A stretch of 64,000 nucleotides of DNA from Pseudalgibacter alginicilyticus (lineage in GTDB: Bacteria; Bacteroidota; Bacteroidia; Flavobacteriales; Flavobacteriaceae), in contig NZ_CP012898.1 in NCBI RefSeq assembly GCF_001310225.1, positions 2,046,001 through 2,110,000 on the forward strand, written 5' to 3'. Below are positions 37,003 to 44,483 of this stretch, piece after piece. Every line of letters starts with the position of its first letter. Position 1 is the stretch's first letter. Under the pieces are notes generated by a model. That model worked only from the letters and a program-made list of their open reading frames with translations. It was not told where the DNA came from and made no database searches. The translations under genes and the position numbers were made by a program.

Positions 37003-38268
37003 TTAAACCAAAAACTGAAATAACTCTGGCTTATTATTTAAATAATCACCATAAAATTTGTCTCGTTTCATTCTGGCTATTAAAGGCTCCAAATCCTTTG
37101 GATGTTTTAACTCAACACCTACCACGGCCGTACCATTTTCTCGATTGGTATTTTTAGTATACCTAAAATGGGTTATATCATCATTAGGACCTAAAATATC
37201 TACCACAAACTGTTTTAAAGCCCCAGAGCGTTGTGGAAATATTACTATAAAATAATGCTTCAAATTGGCATAAAGCAGAGCGCGTTCTTTAATTTCAGCA
37301 GCTCTTGTAAAATCATTATTACTACCACTAATTACACATACTACATTTGCTCCTTTGATGTCTTCGGCATAAAAATCTAATGCTGCAATGCTTAATGCCC
37401 CTGCAGGTTCAACCACAATAGCATCTTTATTATAAAGCTCCAAAATGGTTTGACATACTTTACCTTCAGGAACTGTAACCATATCATGCAGCAATGCCTT
37501 GCAAATTGGAAAGGTTAAATCACCAACCCGTTTAACTGCTGCTCCATCAACAAACTTTTCTATATCATTTAATTCAGTATTCTTATTGTTTTTTATAGAA
37601 AGTAACATGGAGGGTGCTCCTTCAGGCTCCACACCAATAATTTTTGTATTTGGAGATAAGGCTTTAAAAACAGTAGATAAACCTGCTGCCAACCCTCCAC
37701 CTCCAACTGGAATAAATACATAATCAATAGGTGTTGTTGCTTGTTCTAAAATTTCTAAACCAATGGTTGCTTGTCCTTCAATTACTTTTTCATCATTAAA
37801 AGGATGAATAAATATTTTATGCAAAGCCTCACATTCTTGGAGTGCTTCATAATAAGCATCATCAAAAGTATCACCAATTAACTTTACTTCAATAAAATCT
37901 TCGCCAAACATTTTTACCTGCTCCACCTTTTGTTTTGGAGTAGGTGCTGGCATATAAATAGTTCCTTTTATTTTTAATAACTTGCAAGATAAGGCAACGC
38001 CTTGTGCGTGGTTTCCGGCACTGGCACAAACCACTCCCTTTTTTGCTTGTACATCTTTAAGAGAGCTGATTTTATTATAGGCACCTCTTATTTTATAAGA
38101 ACGTACTTGTTGCAGGTCTTCGCGCTTAAAAAAAATATTCGCTTTAAAAAAATTAGAATATCTCAAGCTTGGGCTTAAAGGAGTAACTGCCGATACTTTT
38201 TTAATGGTATCAGCAGCTACTTTTATATTATCAATACTAGGAAAATAAGTATTTTTCTCCTTGTTCAT
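37003..38268 (-). CDS. ilvA: Threonine deaminase (threonine ammonia-lyase)
   Basis: A 421-aa PLP enzyme that converts threonine to 2-oxobutanoate, the entry to isoleucine. The PLP lysine is in FKREDLQQVRSYKIRGAYNKI and the phosphate loop is VPVGGGGLAAGLS (written here IPVGGGGLAAG); SGSNNDFTR is the third conserved block. A single ACT-like regulatory domain follows from about residue 330 (YFIVIFPQRSGALKQFVVDILGPNDDITHF). It is the last gene of the ilv operon, 76 bp after ilvC. The biosynthetic class is supported by its operon and C-terminal domain. Confidence 0.93.
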   Translation of the reverse strand: MNKEKNTYFPSIDNIKVAADTIKKVSAVTPLSPSLRYSNFFKANIFFKREDLQQVRSYKIRGAYNKISSLKDVQAKKGVVCASAGNHAQGVALSCKLLKIKGTIYMPAPTPKQKVEQVKMFGEDFIEVKLIGDTFDDAYYEALQECEALHKIFIHPFNDEKVIEGQATIGLEILEQATTPIDYVFIPVGGGGLAAGLSTVFKALSPNTKIIGVEPEGAPSMLLSIKNNKNTELNDIEKFVDGAAVKRVGDLTFPICKALLHDMVTVPEGKVCQTILELYNKDAIVVEPAGALSIAALDFYAEDIKGANVVCVISGSNNDFTRAAEIKERALLYANLKHYFIVIFPQRSGALKQFVVDILGPNDDITHFRYTKNTNRENGTAVVGVELKHPKDLEPLIARMKRDKFYGDYLNNKPELFQFLV

Positions 38269-38344
38269 TATTGATTATTTATTAGATTCTTGGCATCGAC
38301 TATACTCAGCCAAAAAAGTGACTAAACACAACCTATTTAAAAAC

Positions 38345-39820
38345 TTATACTATTGGTTTCATAGCCGTCATTGAAGCTCTTAAAAACCTTCCTACTTTTT
38401 CTACAGGGTGATTTCTTAAAGCAGCATTTACTTCAATTAATTTAGCATTATCTACCCCTTTACCGTTATCTTTAGCATAGGTTTTTCCGATAACATCCGC
38501 ATCTATTTTCTTCATAAAATCTGCTAATAAAGGTTTACAAGCATGATCAAATAAATAACATCCGTATTCGGCTGTATCAGAAATCACAGAGTTCATTTCG
38601 TATAACTTACGTCTTGCAATTGTATTTGCAATAAGTGGCGTTTCGTGTAATGATTCGTAATAAGCAGAAGCATCAATAATTCCAGAATCTGTCATAGCTT
38701 CAAAAGCCAATTCCACACCTGCTCTTACCATAGCTACCATTAATACGCCATTATCATAATACTCTTGCTCTGTAATTTCAACATTTCCAGCAGGTGTTTT
38801 TTCAAATGCAGTTTCTGCTGTTGCAGCTCTCCATCCTAATAAATCTTTATCATCATTAGCCCAATCTGCCATCATGCCTGCAGAAAAACGACCTTCAATA
38901 ATATCATCCATATGTTTTTGGAATAATGGGCGCATAATATCTTTTAATTCTTCTGAAAGTTCAAAAGCCTTAATTTTTGCTGGGTTTGACAAACGATCCA
39001 TCATGTTGGTAATTCCTCCATATTTAAGACCTTCTGTTATCGTTTCCCATCCATATTGAATTAATTTTGAAGCATAGCCTGCATCAATACCTTTTTCAAT
39101 CATTTTATCAAAACAAAGGATAGACCCTGTTTGTAACAAACCACAAAGAATGGTTTGCTCACCCATTAAATCAGATTTTACCTCAGCAATAAAAGATGAT
39201 GCCAAAACACCTGCTCTATCTCCTCCAGTAGCTGCAGCATACGCTTTAGCTTGCGCCCAACCTTTTCCTTCTGGATCATTTTCTTCGTGAACCGCAATTA
39301 ATGTTGGAACACCAAATCCTCTTTTGTATTCTTCTCTAACTTCTGTTCCTGGACATTTAGGCGCTACCATGATTACGGTTAAATCTTCACGCACTTGAGT
39401 ACCTTCTTCAACTATATTAAAACCATGAGAATATGATAAAGTCGCTCCTTTTTTCATTAATGGCATAACTGCTTTCACTACACTGGTGTGTTGTTTATCT
39501 GGTGTTAAATTTAACACCAAATCTGCTGTTGGAATTAACTCTTCATAAGTCCCTACTGTAAACCCATTTTCTGTAGCATTAACAAACGATGCACGTTTTT
39601 CTTTAATAGCTGCATCACGCAAAGCATAAGAAATATCCAGACCTGAATCTCTCATATTCAACCCTTGATTTAAGCCTTGAGCACCACACCCTACGATGAC
39701 AATTTTTTTACCTTTTAAAGCATTTACGCCATCTGTAAATTCTGAAGCGTCCATAAATCTACACTTCGATAGTTGATTTAATTTATCTCTTAACGAAAGT
39801 GTGTTAAAATAATTTCCCAT
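38345..39820 (-). CDS. ilvC: Ketol-acid reductoisomerase, class II
   Basis: A 491-aa enzyme that isomerises and reduces acetolactate or acetohydroxybutyrate. The NADPH site is [21 protein letters not shown] with the characteristic RDSG variant of GxGxxG, and the catalytic domain is duplicated, as shown by the length near 490 and the two repeats with DLMGEQTIL and EVxxEYYDNG-type segments. This is the long, class II form of E. coli and plants rather than the 330-aa class I. It follows ilvN by 20 bp and precedes ilvA. Confidence 0.94.
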
Positions 39821-39840
39821 TTTATATTTGATTGTTATTA

Positions 39841-40374
39841 TTATTGATTATTGAATGCTGTAAGCAATTCAGTTATTTTCATTTGATCTTTGGTTACTGC
39901 TATTCTTCCTGAGCGTACAAATTGCATAATACCAAAGGCATTTAAATCTCTACGTAAAGATTCAATTTCGTTTCTTCTACCTGATTTTTCAAGCACAAAA
40001 AACTCCCTATTTACTGTTACAATTCTTGCATAACTTTCTTTAATGATATTCTGAATTTGAGGTTCATTAAATAACAAATCAGATTTAATTTTAAACATAC
40101 AAGATTCTGTAAAAATAGTTTGGTCTTCTGTATGATAATATGCTCTAATTGTTTCAACTTGTTTTTCAATTTGTTTAACAATTTTAGAAGCTTTCTCTTC
40201 TGTGATGTTGACAACAATTACAAAACGATTTACACCATCAATTTCTGATTGAGACGTTGTTAAGCTTTCTATATTTATGTGTCTACGTTGAAAAATAGCT
40301 GAAATACGGTTCAATAAACCGATATTGTTTTCGGTATAAATTGATATTGTGAATGATTTTATTTCTTCGTTCAT
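39841..40374 (-). CDS. ilvN: Acetolactate synthase small (regulatory) subunit
   Basis: A 177-aa regulatory subunit with an ACT domain at the start: [49 protein letters not shown]. The ACT domain binds valine and confers feedback inhibition on the large subunit. The second half ([50 protein letters not shown]) is the IlvN C-terminal domain. It is 12 bp downstream of ilvB, and the stoichiometric genes are likely translated together. Confidence 0.93.
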
Positions 40375-40386
40375 GTTTTAATAATC

Positions 40387-42120
40387 TTAACTTAATCTTA
40401 CGTCTGAAACCGATGCTCCTGAAGGAATCATTGGAAATACATTATCTTCTTTTTCTACACAAACTTCTAAGAAATACGACTCTTTTGAAGCTATCATTTC
40501 TTTTATTGCTTCTGCCAATTCTTCGCGCTTAGTTACTTTCCTCGCTTTAATATAGTAACCTTCTGCAATGGCTATAAAATTAGGATTTGTCATTTCGGTA
40601 GATGCATAACGCCTATCAAAAAATAATTGCTGCCACTGACGCACCATTCCTAAAAACTCATTGTTTAGTACCACAACTTTGACAGCTGTTTTTTGCTGAA
40701 AAATGGTTCCTAGTTCTTGAATATTCATTTGAAAACCACCATCTCCAATAATAGCTACAACCTCACGATTTGGTGCAGCCATTTTTGCTCCAATAGCAGC
40801 TGGAAGTGCAAATCCCATGGTTCCTAAACCTCCAGAAGTTATATTACTTTTAGTAGTAGTAAATTCAGCATATCTACAAGCAATCATTTGGTGTTGCCCA
40901 ACGTCCGAAACAATAGCCGCATGACCTTTACTTTCAATATTTATTTGCTTTAAAACCTCTCCCATAGTCAATCCTTCTTTTGTAGGATTGATATCATTAT
41001 TGATTACCTTTTCAAATTCAATAGCATATAAATCTTTGAATTCTTGTAACCACAATTCGTGTGAGTTTGTATTTATAGCATCAAGAAGCATAGCTAAACT
41101 TTCTTTTGAATTTCCCAATACAGCTACATCCGTTTGAACATTTTTATTAATTTCTGCTGGGTCAATATCAAAATGAATAATTTTTGCCTGCTTTGCATAG
41201 CGGCTTAAATCTCCCGTAACGCGGTCATCAAAACGCATTCCAATTGCAATAAGCACATCGCACTCATTGGTTAATTTATTTGGCGCATAATTACCATGCA
41301 TTCCAACCATACCTATATTTAACGGATGCGATGTTGGCAAAGCTGAGGCTCCTAAAATAGTCCATGCAGCTGGAATACCAGCTTTTTCAATCACCGCTTT
41401 AAGCTCCTCTTCAGCTTGCCCTAAAATAACACCTTGACCCCAAACAATCATAGGTTTTTTAGCATTATTAATCAACGCTGCAGCGGCTTTGATATGTTCT
41501 GGATTTGTTTTAGGTACAGGCATATAACTTCTTACACCTTTACATTTTTCATACTTAAAGTCTAATTCAGAAACTTGAGCATCTTTTGTTATATCTACTA
41601 ACACAGGCCCTGGTCTTCCACTTTTAGCAATATAAAATGCTTTTGCGATAGCAGCTGGAATATCTTCAGACTTAGTCACTTGACAATTCCATTTAGTAAC
41701 TGGTGTAGAAATACCAACAATATCGGTTTCTTGAAATGCATCACTTCCCAATAAATGAGAAAACACTTGACCGGTTATGCAAACCAAAGGTGTAGAATCA
41801 ATTTGTGCATCTGCTATACCTGTTATTAAATTGGTTGCTCCAGGTCCTGAAGTAGCCATAGCAACACCAACCTTACCAGATATACGTGCGTAACCTTGTG
41901 CTGCATGTGCGGCACCTTGTTCGTGACGTGTTAATACATGATGAATTTTATCTTGAAATTTGAACAATTCATCGTAAACAGGCATAATAGCGCCTCCTGG
42001 ATATCCGTAAAGAATATCAACACCTTCAGCTATCAAACTTCTTACAACAGCTTCGCTACCCGATATACGTTCTGTTTTTACTGCCACTTCTTGTTTTTTA
42101 TTAATTGTTTGTGTTTTCAT
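40387..42120 (-). CDS. ilvB: Acetolactate synthase large (catalytic) subunit
   Basis: A ThDP-dependent enzyme of 577 aa that condenses pyruvate or 2-oxobutanoate. It carries the catalytic Glu segment YGYPGGAIMPVYDELFKF, the QVFSHLLGSDAFQETDI loop, the FAD-region GMRFDDRVTG, and the ThDP motif GDGGFQMNIQELGTIFQQKTAVKVVVLNN. A GTG at 42129 is also in frame, but I chose the ATG at 42120 because the extra three residues add nothing and the ATG is standard. It lies 53 bp after ilvD. The product feeds both isoleucine and valine. Confidence 0.94.
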   Translation of the reverse strand: MKTQTINKKQEVAVKTERISGSEAVVRSLIAEGVDILYGYPGGAIMPVYDELFKFQDKIHHVLTRHEQGAAHAAQGYARISGKVGVAMATSGPGATNLITGIADAQIDSTPLVCITGQVFSHLLGSDAFQETDIVGISTPVTKWNCQVTKSEDIPAAIAKAFYIAKSGRPGPVLVDITKDAQVSELDFKYEKCKGVRSYMPVPKTNPEHIKAAAALINNAKKPMIVWGQGVILGQAEEELKAVIEKAGIPAAWTILGASALPTSHPLNIGMVGMHGNYAPNKLTNECDVLIAIGMRFDDRVTGDLSRYAKQAKIIHFDIDPAEINKNVQTDVAVLGNSKESLAMLLDAINTNSHELWLQEFKDLYAIEFEKVINNDINPTKEGLTMGEVLKQINIESKGHAAIVSDVGQHQMIACRYAEFTTTKSNITSGGLGTMGFALPAAIGAKMAAPNREVVAIIGDGGFQMNIQELGTIFQQKTAVKVVVLNNEFLGMVRQWQQLFFDRRYASTEMTNPNFIAIAEGYYIKARKVTKREELAEAIKEMIASKESYFLEVCVEKEDNVFPMIPSGASVSDVRLS

Positions 42121-42173
42121 AGGTCTCACTTTATTGAGATTCCCTTTTTTTGAGGGAATGAAAATTTTATCTT

Positions 42174-43856
42174 TTATGCATCCGTTACACAGCCTTTTGA
42201 AGCCGATGCTACAGACTTTGCATATTTATACAATATTCCTTTTTTGTGTTTTAAGGCTGGTTGTATCCATTTTGATTTTCTTTCTGCCAATTCCTCATCA
42301 GAAAGTAGTACATTAATGGTATTATCTTCAGCACTAATTCTAATTCTATCACCAGTTTTAATCAATCCTATAGCTCCACCTTCTTGTGCTTCTGGCGTAA
42401 TGTGTCCTACCACAAAACCATGTGTTCCCCCAGAAAAACGTCCATCTGTAATTAAAGCTACTGATTTCCCTAAACCAGCCCCCATTATTAGTGAAGTTGG
42501 TTTTAACATTTCTGGCATACCTGGACCTCCTTTAGGCCCAACGTAACGAATAACAACTACATCACCTTTTGCAACTTCTCCATTAGAAATCCCTGTATTT
42601 GCAGCTTGTTCACCATCATAAACAACGGCTTTACCCTCAAACAATAACCCTTCATTTCCAGATATTTTTGCAACAGCGCCTTCTTCGGCTAAATTTCCAT
42701 AAAGAATTTGAAGATTACCTGAAGATTTTAAAGCTTTATCTTTAGGATAAATAACATCTTGGTCATCTTCAAAGGTAAGAGGTTCAACATTTGCTAAGTT
42801 TTCAGCTAAAGTTTTACCTGTTACTGTCAAACAATCACCATGCAAATAGCCATGATCTAATAAGTACTTCATGACAGCAGGGGTCCCTCCTATACCATGA
42901 ACATCTTCCATTAAATATTTTCCAGATGGTTTTAAATCGGCTATCAATGGTGTTCTATCACTAACACGTTGAAAATCTTCTAAAGTAAACTCTATATCTG
43001 CCGCGTGTGCAATAGCTAAAAAGTGCAATACTGCATTTGTTGACCCTCCTAAAGCATTTACAAGCGCAATAGCATTTTCAATCGATTTTTTAGAAATAAT
43101 ATCTAAAGGTTTTAAATCTAATTCTAATAAATTTTTAATTGCTAGTGCTGTCCGTTCACTTTCTGATAATTTATTCGGGTTTTCAGCTGGAATAGATGAG
43201 TTATATGGCAATGCAAAGCCCATACACTCAATGGCCGATGCCATAGTGTTTGCTGTATACATCCCACCACAAGCTCCTGCTCCAGGAATAGCACTTTTTA
43301 TAATTTCTCTATACTCTTCATCATCAATTTCTCCAGCTACTTTTTGCCCTAAAGCTTCAAAAGCCGAGACAATATTAAGTTTTCTTCCTTTATATTTTCC
43401 TGAAGCAATGGTCCCTCCATACATCATAATTGACGGACGATTTAATCGTAACATAGCAATTACTGCTCCTGGCATATTTTTATCACAACCAACAACAGAT
43501 ATAAGTGCATCATAACTTTGAGCATTCATCACTGTTTCAATAGAATCAGCAATAATATCACGAGATGCTAAAGAATAATTCATGCCTGTGGTCCCCATAG
43601 AAATACCATCACTCACACCAATAGTATTGAATCCTAAACCTACTAAACCTGCTATTTTACATTCAATTTTTACTTCAGAGGCCAACCCATTTAAATGCAT
43701 ATTACACGGATTACCATCATAGCCCGTACTTGCAATGCCCACTTGAGCTTTTTGCATATCTTCGTCTGTTAGACCTACTGCATACAACATGGCTTGAGAA
43801 GCTGGCTGAGACACATCTTGAGTTAATCTACTACTGTGTTTATTAAGTTTACTCAT
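42174..43856 (-). CDS. ilvD: Dihydroxy-acid dehydratase
   Basis: A 560-aa Fe-S enzyme that dehydrates dihydroxy acids to 2-oxo acids, the step before valine and isoleucine transamination. The Fe-S cysteines are in [24 protein letters not shown] and [42 protein letters not shown] is the C-terminal signature. It is the first gene of the ilvDBNCA operon. The upstream region holds a leader peptide gene and an attenuator terminator. Confidence 0.95.
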
Positions 43857-44102
43857 TTTTTATATAGATAATTTTATACTTTACCTTAATTCCAATTAAT
43901 CTTCAACAATTTTATGATTATTATTGAAAAATATTCAACATTATCAAATTAGTGTTCGAAATTAATTTATTATGATTTTATAAAGGTTTTTTTTTCTTAT
44001 TTAAGGTTAAATCCATTGCCTACAAAAACATATTAAACACCTGAAAAACAAATTGTTAAATAGATATTTTTATGATGTTCAAAACATTCAAAATAATCAA
44101 CA
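43857..44102. other. Untranslated region between the ilv attenuator and ilvD
   Basis: About 245 bp of AT-rich sequence on the minus-strand transcript between the attenuator T-run and the ilvD start. I see no gene, riboswitch or further hairpin in it. Confidence 0.5.
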
Positions 44103-44129
44103 AAAAAACCTTCCGTTTTTGGAAGGCTT
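44102..44129 (-). terminator. ilv attenuator terminator
   Basis: Read on the minus strand: AAGCCTTCC (44129-44121), loop AAAAAC, GGAAGG (44114-44109), followed by seven T. The T-run is only on this strand. It lies 34 bp after the leader-peptide stop, well ahead of ilvD. A competing pairing exists: the GGGAGGCTT overlapping the leader stop (44163-44155) can pair with AAGCCTTCC (44129-44121) as an antiterminator. Confidence 0.8.
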
Positions 44130-44162
44130 GTAATATTTATTAACGTCTATAAATAAGCCTCC

Positions 44163-44225
44163 CTATCGATGTGAAATATCTACAACGACATGAATAGAAA
44201 TGCTATTTACTATTTGTTTATTCAT
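44163..44225 (-). CDS. ilv operon leader peptide (Ile/Val-rich, attenuator)
   Basis: A 20-codon ORF from ATG 44225 to TAG ending at 44163: MNKQIVNSISIHVVVDISHR. Eight of 20 residues are isoleucine or valine, with the run IHVVVDI before the end, and the peptide precedes an attenuator and the ilvDBNCA operon. This matches transcription attenuation as known for branched-chain operons: starvation for Ile or Val stalls the ribosome at the cluster and favours the antiterminator; abundance lets it reach the stop and the terminator forms. The start is only about 10 nt after a -7-like element, so the transcript may be leaderless or nearly so. Confidence 0.8.
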   Translation of the reverse strand: MNKQIVNSISIHVVVDISHR

Positions 44226-44234
44226 TTGATAAAA

Positions 44235-44265
44235 CAAATGTTGAAAATAAAAACATAATAACCAA
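44235..44265 (-). promoter_or_regulatory. Putative promoter of the ilv leader
   Basis: On the minus strand, TTG (44265-44263), 20-bp spacer and AACATTTG (44242-44235), one base from TAnnTTTG. Transcription would start within about 10 nt of the leader ATG at 44225. Confidence 0.45.
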
Positions 44266-44293
44266 TTTAATTTTAAAAAAAATAAGAATCAAT

Positions 44294-44322
44294 TTGCTAT
44301 TCACTTATTTTTTTTACTTTTG
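44294..44322 (+). promoter_or_regulatory. Promoter of metK
   Basis: TTG at 44294-44296 and TACTTTTG at 44315-44322, an 18-bp spacer. Transcription would start near 44329, directly before the riboswitch P1 stem. Confidence 0.65.
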
Positions 44323-44330
44323 CTAAACAA

Positions 44331-44453
44331 ATAACAGAGGAAGGATTTGACTGATTGCAACCTCTTTGTACACATTAAATTGTTCCTATTTTAAAAAAAC
44401 AATTCGGTACAAGCAAAAATGCTAAAGGCAGTGTAAGCTCCCTGAGACGTTAT
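44331..44453 (+). promoter_or_regulatory. SAM-I (S-box) riboswitch upstream of metK
   Basis: P1 is ATAAC (44331-44335) with GTTAT (44449-44453). AGAGG (44336-44340) pairs with CCTCT (44361-44365), enclosing GGATTTGACTGATTGCAA with the GGA/TGA kink-turn bases and GCAACC. A long third hairpin is TTGTAC (44366-44371)/GTACAA (44407-44412) with inner ATTGTT/AACAAT, and ATGCTAAAGGCAG follows (44420-44432), the UGCUAA-type joining region. Located 30 bp before metK, it would sense the product of the enzyme. No terminator follows, so control is likely at translation start. Confidence 0.75.
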
Positions 44454-44483
44454 CGTCAAATCTTCTACTATAAACATATTTTA

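Follow-up and report, generated by a model that had tools for sequence, protein, structure and literature searches.

The ilvDBNCA operon of Pseudalgibacter alginicilyticus lies on the minus strand of the window, the whole 64,000-nucleotide stretch of DNA that was analysed. A first-pass annotation, made from the letters alone, had placed a complete ribosome-stalling Ile/Val attenuator in front of it. The question raised by the locus is whether such an attenuator stands there, and how much of ilv transcription it could govern.

The leader and its alternative hairpins

NCBIfam models gave the operon order ilvD-B-N-C-A, the same as at first pass. On the plus strand metK diverges from it, preceded by a SAM-II riboswitch at 44331-44435 (Rfam), and the metK promoter is expected close to the ilv promoter P1.

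The comparison set of ilvD upstream regions had 190 members: the window's own, 80 others (L003-L082) and 109 from the same family (L083-L191), with the 229 of 299 family genomes having an IlvD match at E <= 1e-200 as the pool. These regions are related, and some apparently represent one locus twice (L017/L089, L014/L147, L011/L116), so that they do not count as independent cases. Near relatives by IlvD were an uncultured Flaviramulus (94%) and a Flavobacteriaceae MAG (92%). A set of 46 close relatives was defined (L003-L007, L011, L017 and L083-L121), which takes in L004, L005 and L007, of similar IlvD identity. Alignment A1 holds 29 close sequences, window included, out of 32 found; L112 and L117, where a wrong or spurious leader had been picked, and L089, the duplicate of L017, were left out.

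The genes and attenuator parts are listed by window position, strand and description, with the basis of each.
42174..43856, minus: ilvD, first structural gene (NCBIfam TIGR00110)
37003..42129, minus: ilvB, ilvN, ilvC and ilvA (NCBIfam)
44163..44225, minus: leader ORF MNKQIVNSISIHVVVDISHR* (sequence; aligned with 28 relatives)
44196..44210, minus: segment 1, formed by leader codons 6-10, partner of segment 2 (fold and swap test, 29 sequences)
44164..44190, minus: leader-internal hairpin that sits in the 1:2 loop and may be a pause hairpin (29-sequence column counts)
44149..44163, minus: segment 2, antiterminator arm, whose core 44155-44163 overlaps the stop codon (fold and sequence)
44121..44129, minus: segment 3, the 5' arm of the terminator, partner of 44155-44163 (fold, 2:3 swap test)
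44102..44129, minus: terminator 3:4 with U7 (fold, -12.2 kcal/mol; terminator scan)

The leader ORF encodes 20 amino acids on the minus strand, including the four Ile (codons 5, 9, 11 and 17) and four Val (codons 6, 13, 14 and 15) of the first-pass annotation. That annotation had proposed to look for Ile/Val enrichment in aligned relatives, and had named a leader ORF without conservation as grounds for refutation. In the 29 close-clade sequences the leader was conserved, with a consensus of approximately MKKQILNIISIIVIVIISQR*, and codons 8-17 specified Ile 145 times and Val 84 times (229 of 290 codons), with Leu at five. The leader is therefore enriched in codons for the products of the operon, as ribosome-mediated attenuators are. 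Compared with its clade, the window has a weaker leader, with 8 Ile/Val versus about 10 in the consensus, and a His and an Asp interrupt its run.

The terminator at 44102-44129, with the seven T reported earlier, was the sole terminator-like site on either strand of 43850-44480, where shuffles lead to an expectation of 0.1, and it lies ahead of the first structural gene, as in attenuators. The antiterminator was recovered as well: the arm 44155-44163 (GGGAGGCTT) pairs with 44121-44129 (AAGCCTTCC) at nine positions, one of them G-U, and the overlap with the leader stop is confirmed in that the first G of GGGAGGCTT is the last base of TAG. The claim that all parts of classical attenuation were present held for this terminator and antiterminator; segment 1 and the leader hairpin had been missed, and with them the anatomy of 1:2, 2:3 and 3:4 pairings plus a leader hairpin completes the classical set. 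In the window, the predicted folding energies were -14.9 kcal/mol for the leader with 1:2, -15.1 for 2:3 and -12.2 for 3:4.

Arms were exchanged among the 29 sequences, in controls that, like the column shuffles, leave the relatedness of the sequences in place. For 1:2 the native mean was -10.99 versus -9.18 kcal/mol when exchanged (0 of 5000 permutations as low), and for 2:3 it was -11.06 versus -10.11 kcal/mol (2 of 5000 as low). The 2:3 antiterminator, exclusive of the other pairings, is thus conserved in its pairing, and 1:2 has its segment 1 inside the leader, both as in known attenuators. When columns were counted across the 1:2, leader-hairpin and 3:4 pairings, 83.6% of cells were paired and 12 of 23 pairs were altered on both sides, a number reached in 1 of 500 shuffles. 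The covariation proposed as a check at first pass was found in these columns, with a score reached by 3 of 500 shuffles; the number of pair types was not significant (47 of 500). Taken singly, 1:2 had 73.9% of cells paired in column register, and the leader hairpin, imperfect in the window itself, had 91.4%, with four of its six pairs changed on both sides. For 2:3, where arm 2 shifts its register by one base from sequence to sequence, no column count was kept and the swap test took its place.

Two predicted promoters, before and behind the attenuator

Upstream of the leader and between the terminator and ilvD, the following promoter-like elements were located.
44263..44265, minus: P1 -33 TTG, 20 nt before the -7-like box
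44235..44242, minus: P1 -7-like box AACATTTG, with five of the six fixed positions of TAnnTTTG
44070..44082, minus: P2 array block 1 TTGAACATCATAA (pattern scan, 190 regions)
44038..44052, minus: P2 block 2, CTG-taat-CAG in the clade consensus and imperfect in the window (ungapped profile, 48 loci)
44005..44016, minus: P2 block 3, clade consensus TGAaTTTAACC (ungapped profile)
43957..43964, minus: P2 -7 box TAATTTCG, predicted start 43952 (spacing from block 1)

The -7-like box had been put at about 10 nt from the leader ATG, and AACATTTG does end 9 nt before it; the box deviates from TAnnTTTG at its first base. Such a box (NAnn[TA]TTG) lay at most 20 nt from the ATG in 71 of 98 leaders, and had a TTG 18-22 nt upstream of it in 41 of 98; among all 4739 ATGs in these regions the figures were 603 and 121. 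The remaining 27 leaders had no -7-like box within 20 nt. Of 74 boxes, 47 had their G at a gap of 8-11 nt from the ATG and 10 at a gap of 4-5 nt. With the box placed at -12 to -5 (PMC9723704), the P1 start in the window is predicted at 44230, which would give a 5' UTR of 5 nt. The earlier suggestion of a leaderless mRNA would hold in the form of this predicted, very short UTR. Leaderless mRNAs were reported to make up 5.5% in Flavobacterium psychrophilum (PMC9723704).

A conserved array of three blocks begins 19 nt behind the window terminator (43952-44082, minus strand). The blocks stand in nearly fixed register, and two of them are TGA-N3-TCA-like in the clade consensus. With no more than 2 mismatches allowed, block 1 occurred in 75 of 190 regions versus 3 of 190 shuffled ones; at 3 mismatches the pattern was uninformative, as shuffles matched about as often (42 vs 52). 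In one clade block 1 reads TTGAATATGATAA. Of 81 loci picked by block 1 alone, 66 carried TAnnTT[TC]G at 117-119 nt past it, where mononucleotide shuffles would give 0.21, and 15 lacked this P2 -7 pattern. The box is of the TAnnTTTG type of Flavobacteriaceae sigma-A at a conserved place, and in TAATTTCG of the window a C stands in place of the third T. By eye, no TTG was seen at the -33 place of the P2 consensus. Together the three blocks and the -7 box probably form a second ilv promoter, P2, that would bypass attenuation.

The array was also considered as an RNA element and rejected as such: in alignment A2 (40 of 64 distinct P2 stretches) RNAalifold gave 0 consensus pairs among the 40 sequences, which favours a DNA element. 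In its own genome the P2 sequence model, R1, had one strong match (61.9 bits), the next reaching 16.0 bits (E 0.05), and no other convincing target was seen among 22 R1 matches up to E 10. At E <= 0.001, R1 matched in 12 of 148 genomes drawn from the order; eight of these, the own genome included, belong to the window's family, with the match upstream of ilvD by coordinates, and four to other families. Three Lrp/AsnC proteins are present in the genome and offer a lead for a P2 regulator.

The order is P1, attenuator, P2, with the attenuator upstream of block 1 in all 49 loci having both, at 20-23 nt from the end of the stem in 32. No second attenuator was found by the scans between the window terminator and ilvD, where the conserved signal is the P2 array. 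The first-pass annotation would have been contradicted by a transcript starting downstream of 44102. P2 predicts one, at about 43952, in addition to the attenuated transcript rather than in its place, and attenuation may therefore govern only part of ilv transcription.

Proposed control and competing readings

The ribosome-stalling mechanism first suggested for this leader is supported by the conservation of the leader and by the fit of the arms to their own partners. Judged on sequence, a ribosome-mediated attenuator sensing charged Ile/Val tRNA very probably controls the ilvDBNCA transcripts from P1, and a probable P2 behind it would bypass the attenuator. RNA polymerase would start some 5 nt upstream of the leader ATG. 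Under a shortage of Ile- or Val-tRNA, the leading ribosome would stall in codons 8-17 and cover segment 1, and the freed segment 2 would pair with segment 3, letting transcription enter ilvD. When both tRNAs are plentiful, the ribosome would reach the stop codon and cover segment 2, and 3:4 would terminate transcription at 44102. These positions are inferred from the footprint of a ribosome, which would cover segment 1 and leave segment 2 free when stalled at the Val codons, and would cover segment 2 when at the stop. P2, with its own conserved upstream DNA array, would start near 43952, past the attenuator, and its transcripts would provide an attenuation-independent supply under a putative regulator binding the array.

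For the clade as a whole, a wider scheme seems to us evenly balanced between right and wrong. The ilv operon would have two serial inputs: P1, near-leaderless and attenuated, and further downstream P2, an operon-specific promoter of the activator type to which an undescribed branched-chain amino acid regulator would bind. P2 would be the older core, and attenuators would have been gained upstream of it, doubled with mostly non-interchangeable arms, or lost.

How often each element is retained bears on a tentative alternative, in which the attenuator works and is minor, most ilv transcripts coming from P2 and the attenuated P1 being a reserve or decaying. Next to ilvD in the 46 close relatives, many of which also built the two models, R1 matched in 46 of 46 and the attenuator covariance model, R2, in 35 of 46. 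The eleven regions with no attenuator match (L003, L004, L011, L096, L101, L102, L111, L116, L117, L119 and L121) all have the P2 array, which is weak in L004 (26.1 bits). L011 and L116 look identical. In L093, L110 and L114 an attenuator match was obtained and the leader is broken by eye; L093 and L111 retain a terminator-like hairpin. From the eleven regions lacking a match and the three broken leaders, the attenuator is dispensable. Seven Flavobacterium loci (L040, L041, L047, L049, L051, L054 and L073) have an attenuator near ilvD and no block 1 pattern, and the two controls are therefore separable. The window's weaker leader and imperfect P1 -7 box also suit a minor attenuator. Against it, all four segments and U7 are intact in the window, which scored 106.4 bits with R2, a model that contains it as one of 29 sequences.

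The remaining readings set the translated attenuator itself aside or add to it, and all are improbable. Conservation of the peptide extends past the Ile/Val run (MKKQILN...SQR in A1), as might be expected if the terminated short RNA or the leader peptide also acted elsewhere in the cell, a role reported for peTrpL of Sinorhizobium (PMC7298713). Segment 1 and the arm overlapping the stop account for part of this conservation, and we consider such an additional role unlikely. A T-box, a riboswitch or a protein-bound terminator would present an identical terminator/antiterminator pair; with no Rfam family reaching its cut-off on the ilv strand of the region, where SAM-II on the opposite strand is the one family that does so, and with an Ile/Val leader conserved together with an arm 2 on its stop codon, these are slightly less credible still.

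A chance ORF ahead of an ordinary terminator can hardly be entertained: AT-rich DNA does yield many Ile codons, and by our own estimate the leader alone would be only moderately unusual, but the conservation, the arm fit, the parts kept across genera and the following scans speak against it. The strict composite, a leader in which 10 codons include 6 or more Ile/Leu/Val, a near-stop arm 2 pairing with the 5' terminator arm, and a terminator, was found in 55 of 190 ilvD upstream regions versus 0 of 567 dinucleotide shuffles. A relaxed scan for leader, antiterminator and terminator was satisfied in 98 of 190 regions, compared with 3 of 950 shuffles and, when reverse strands were scanned, 2 of 190. 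Arm sequences vary by clade, among them CTTCC, CTGTATC, CCCTT, GCCATTC and CCGCCCCG, and every one is matched by an arm 2 of its own; this match is part of the strict scan's definition, and the control for it gave 0 of 567.

Returning to the ribosome-mediated attenuator, two such elements stood in series in 13 of 190 regions in the relaxed scan, for example in Lutibacter L009, Tenacibaculum L013, Gaetbulibacter L045 and Aquimarina L030. One of the 13, L037, is doubtful by eye; L112 is a further tandem locus. The serial Ile/Val attenuators, with differing arms, are those of
L009, L013, L019, L022, L030, L045, L112, L125, L151, L157, L168, L179 and L184.
Arm 2 paired better with its own terminator than with its neighbour's in 25 of 26 comparisons, the exception being in L030, a comparison biased by the energy threshold that own pairs had to pass. 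The window carries one attenuator. The tandem loci offer a natural test of how two attenuators answering the same signal combine.

Known systems and other leaders in the genome

Ribosome-mediated attenuators of amino-acid operons are classical in E. coli (ilvGMEDA, trp and his), and leader-peptide attenuation is textbook matter in Proteobacteria. The ilv leader of the window resembles these in its end-product-rich peptide, its 1:2, 2:3 and 3:4 alternatives and its terminator before the first gene. It differs in its predicted near-leaderless mRNA, in having hardly any Leu codons and in the conserved promoter-like element between the attenuator and the first gene.

No description of a flavobacterial ilv attenuator, of tandem ilv attenuators or of P2 was found in the open-licence literature searched. 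No priority is claimed, because a survey of attenuation by Vitreschak et al. in 2004 is said to include Bacteroidetes/Chlorobi.

Ribosome-mediated attenuation is a known kind of control and has already been inferred upstream of amino-acid biosynthesis operons in F. psychrophilum, a member of the same family as the window (PMC9723704); conserved elements named there include pheA and hisG, and 'ilv' is absent from its main text. In the same phylum, Bacteroides thetaiotaomicron has sORFs 'reminiscent of leader peptides' in long 5' UTRs, and the main text of that paper has no ilv case ('ilv' 0 times; PMC7366714). As far as these papers go, leader-peptide attenuation is only hinted at in Bacteroidota (PMC7366714, PMC9723704). 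Flavobacterial translation is reported to proceed without Shine-Dalgarno sites (PMC9723704), and a near-leaderless, transcription-tied leader would therefore make polymerase-ribosome coupling directly testable in the phylum. The P2 array is a concrete target for finding the clade's branched-chain amino acid regulator.

Leader-ORF attenuation of branched-chain operons is described in Corynebacterium (PMC10272879) and Staphylococcus aureus (PMC5794164), both of other phyla, the S. aureus peptide being Leu-rich. Among Rfam families, Phe_leader (RF01859) gave a full-length weak match at 44100-44216 (39.7 bits, E 4.2e-5), below its gathering score of 55, and the codons here are Ile/Val rather than Phe. 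Bacteroid-trp (RF01692; PMC2864571), a candidate cis-regulatory RNA of Bacteroidetes that is trp by name, had no match in the window. The tandem attenuators of Salmonella mgtCBR (PMC3641672) have two short leader ORFs in one leader, as are found before ilvD in some relatives, and belong to a different kind of operon; the window differs in its single attenuator.

Within its own genome R2 gave 13 matches up to E 5. L217, L218, L220 and L221 were rejected as attenuators, since by eye they look like ordinary terminators, and no Leu-rich leader was seen by eye before leuC among the short ORFs of 2 kb of upstream sequence. Candidate leaders were seen before two other operons.
G000:C1:3579356-3579484, minus: trp attenuator L219 (R2 match plus leader MNTILNNTWWWCF*)
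G000:C1:491700-493300, minus: hisG upstream region L239, leader MTFIQKHHHHFQICAQAK* (HHHH) followed by a terminator-like hairpin
The match before trpE is weak (40.3 bits, E 0.13), and its leader contains WWW; the best NCBIfam model for TrpE was TIGR00564, at 436 bits, below the cut-off of 517.7. With WWW before trpE and HHHH before hisG, leader-peptide attenuation appears to serve several operons of this organism.
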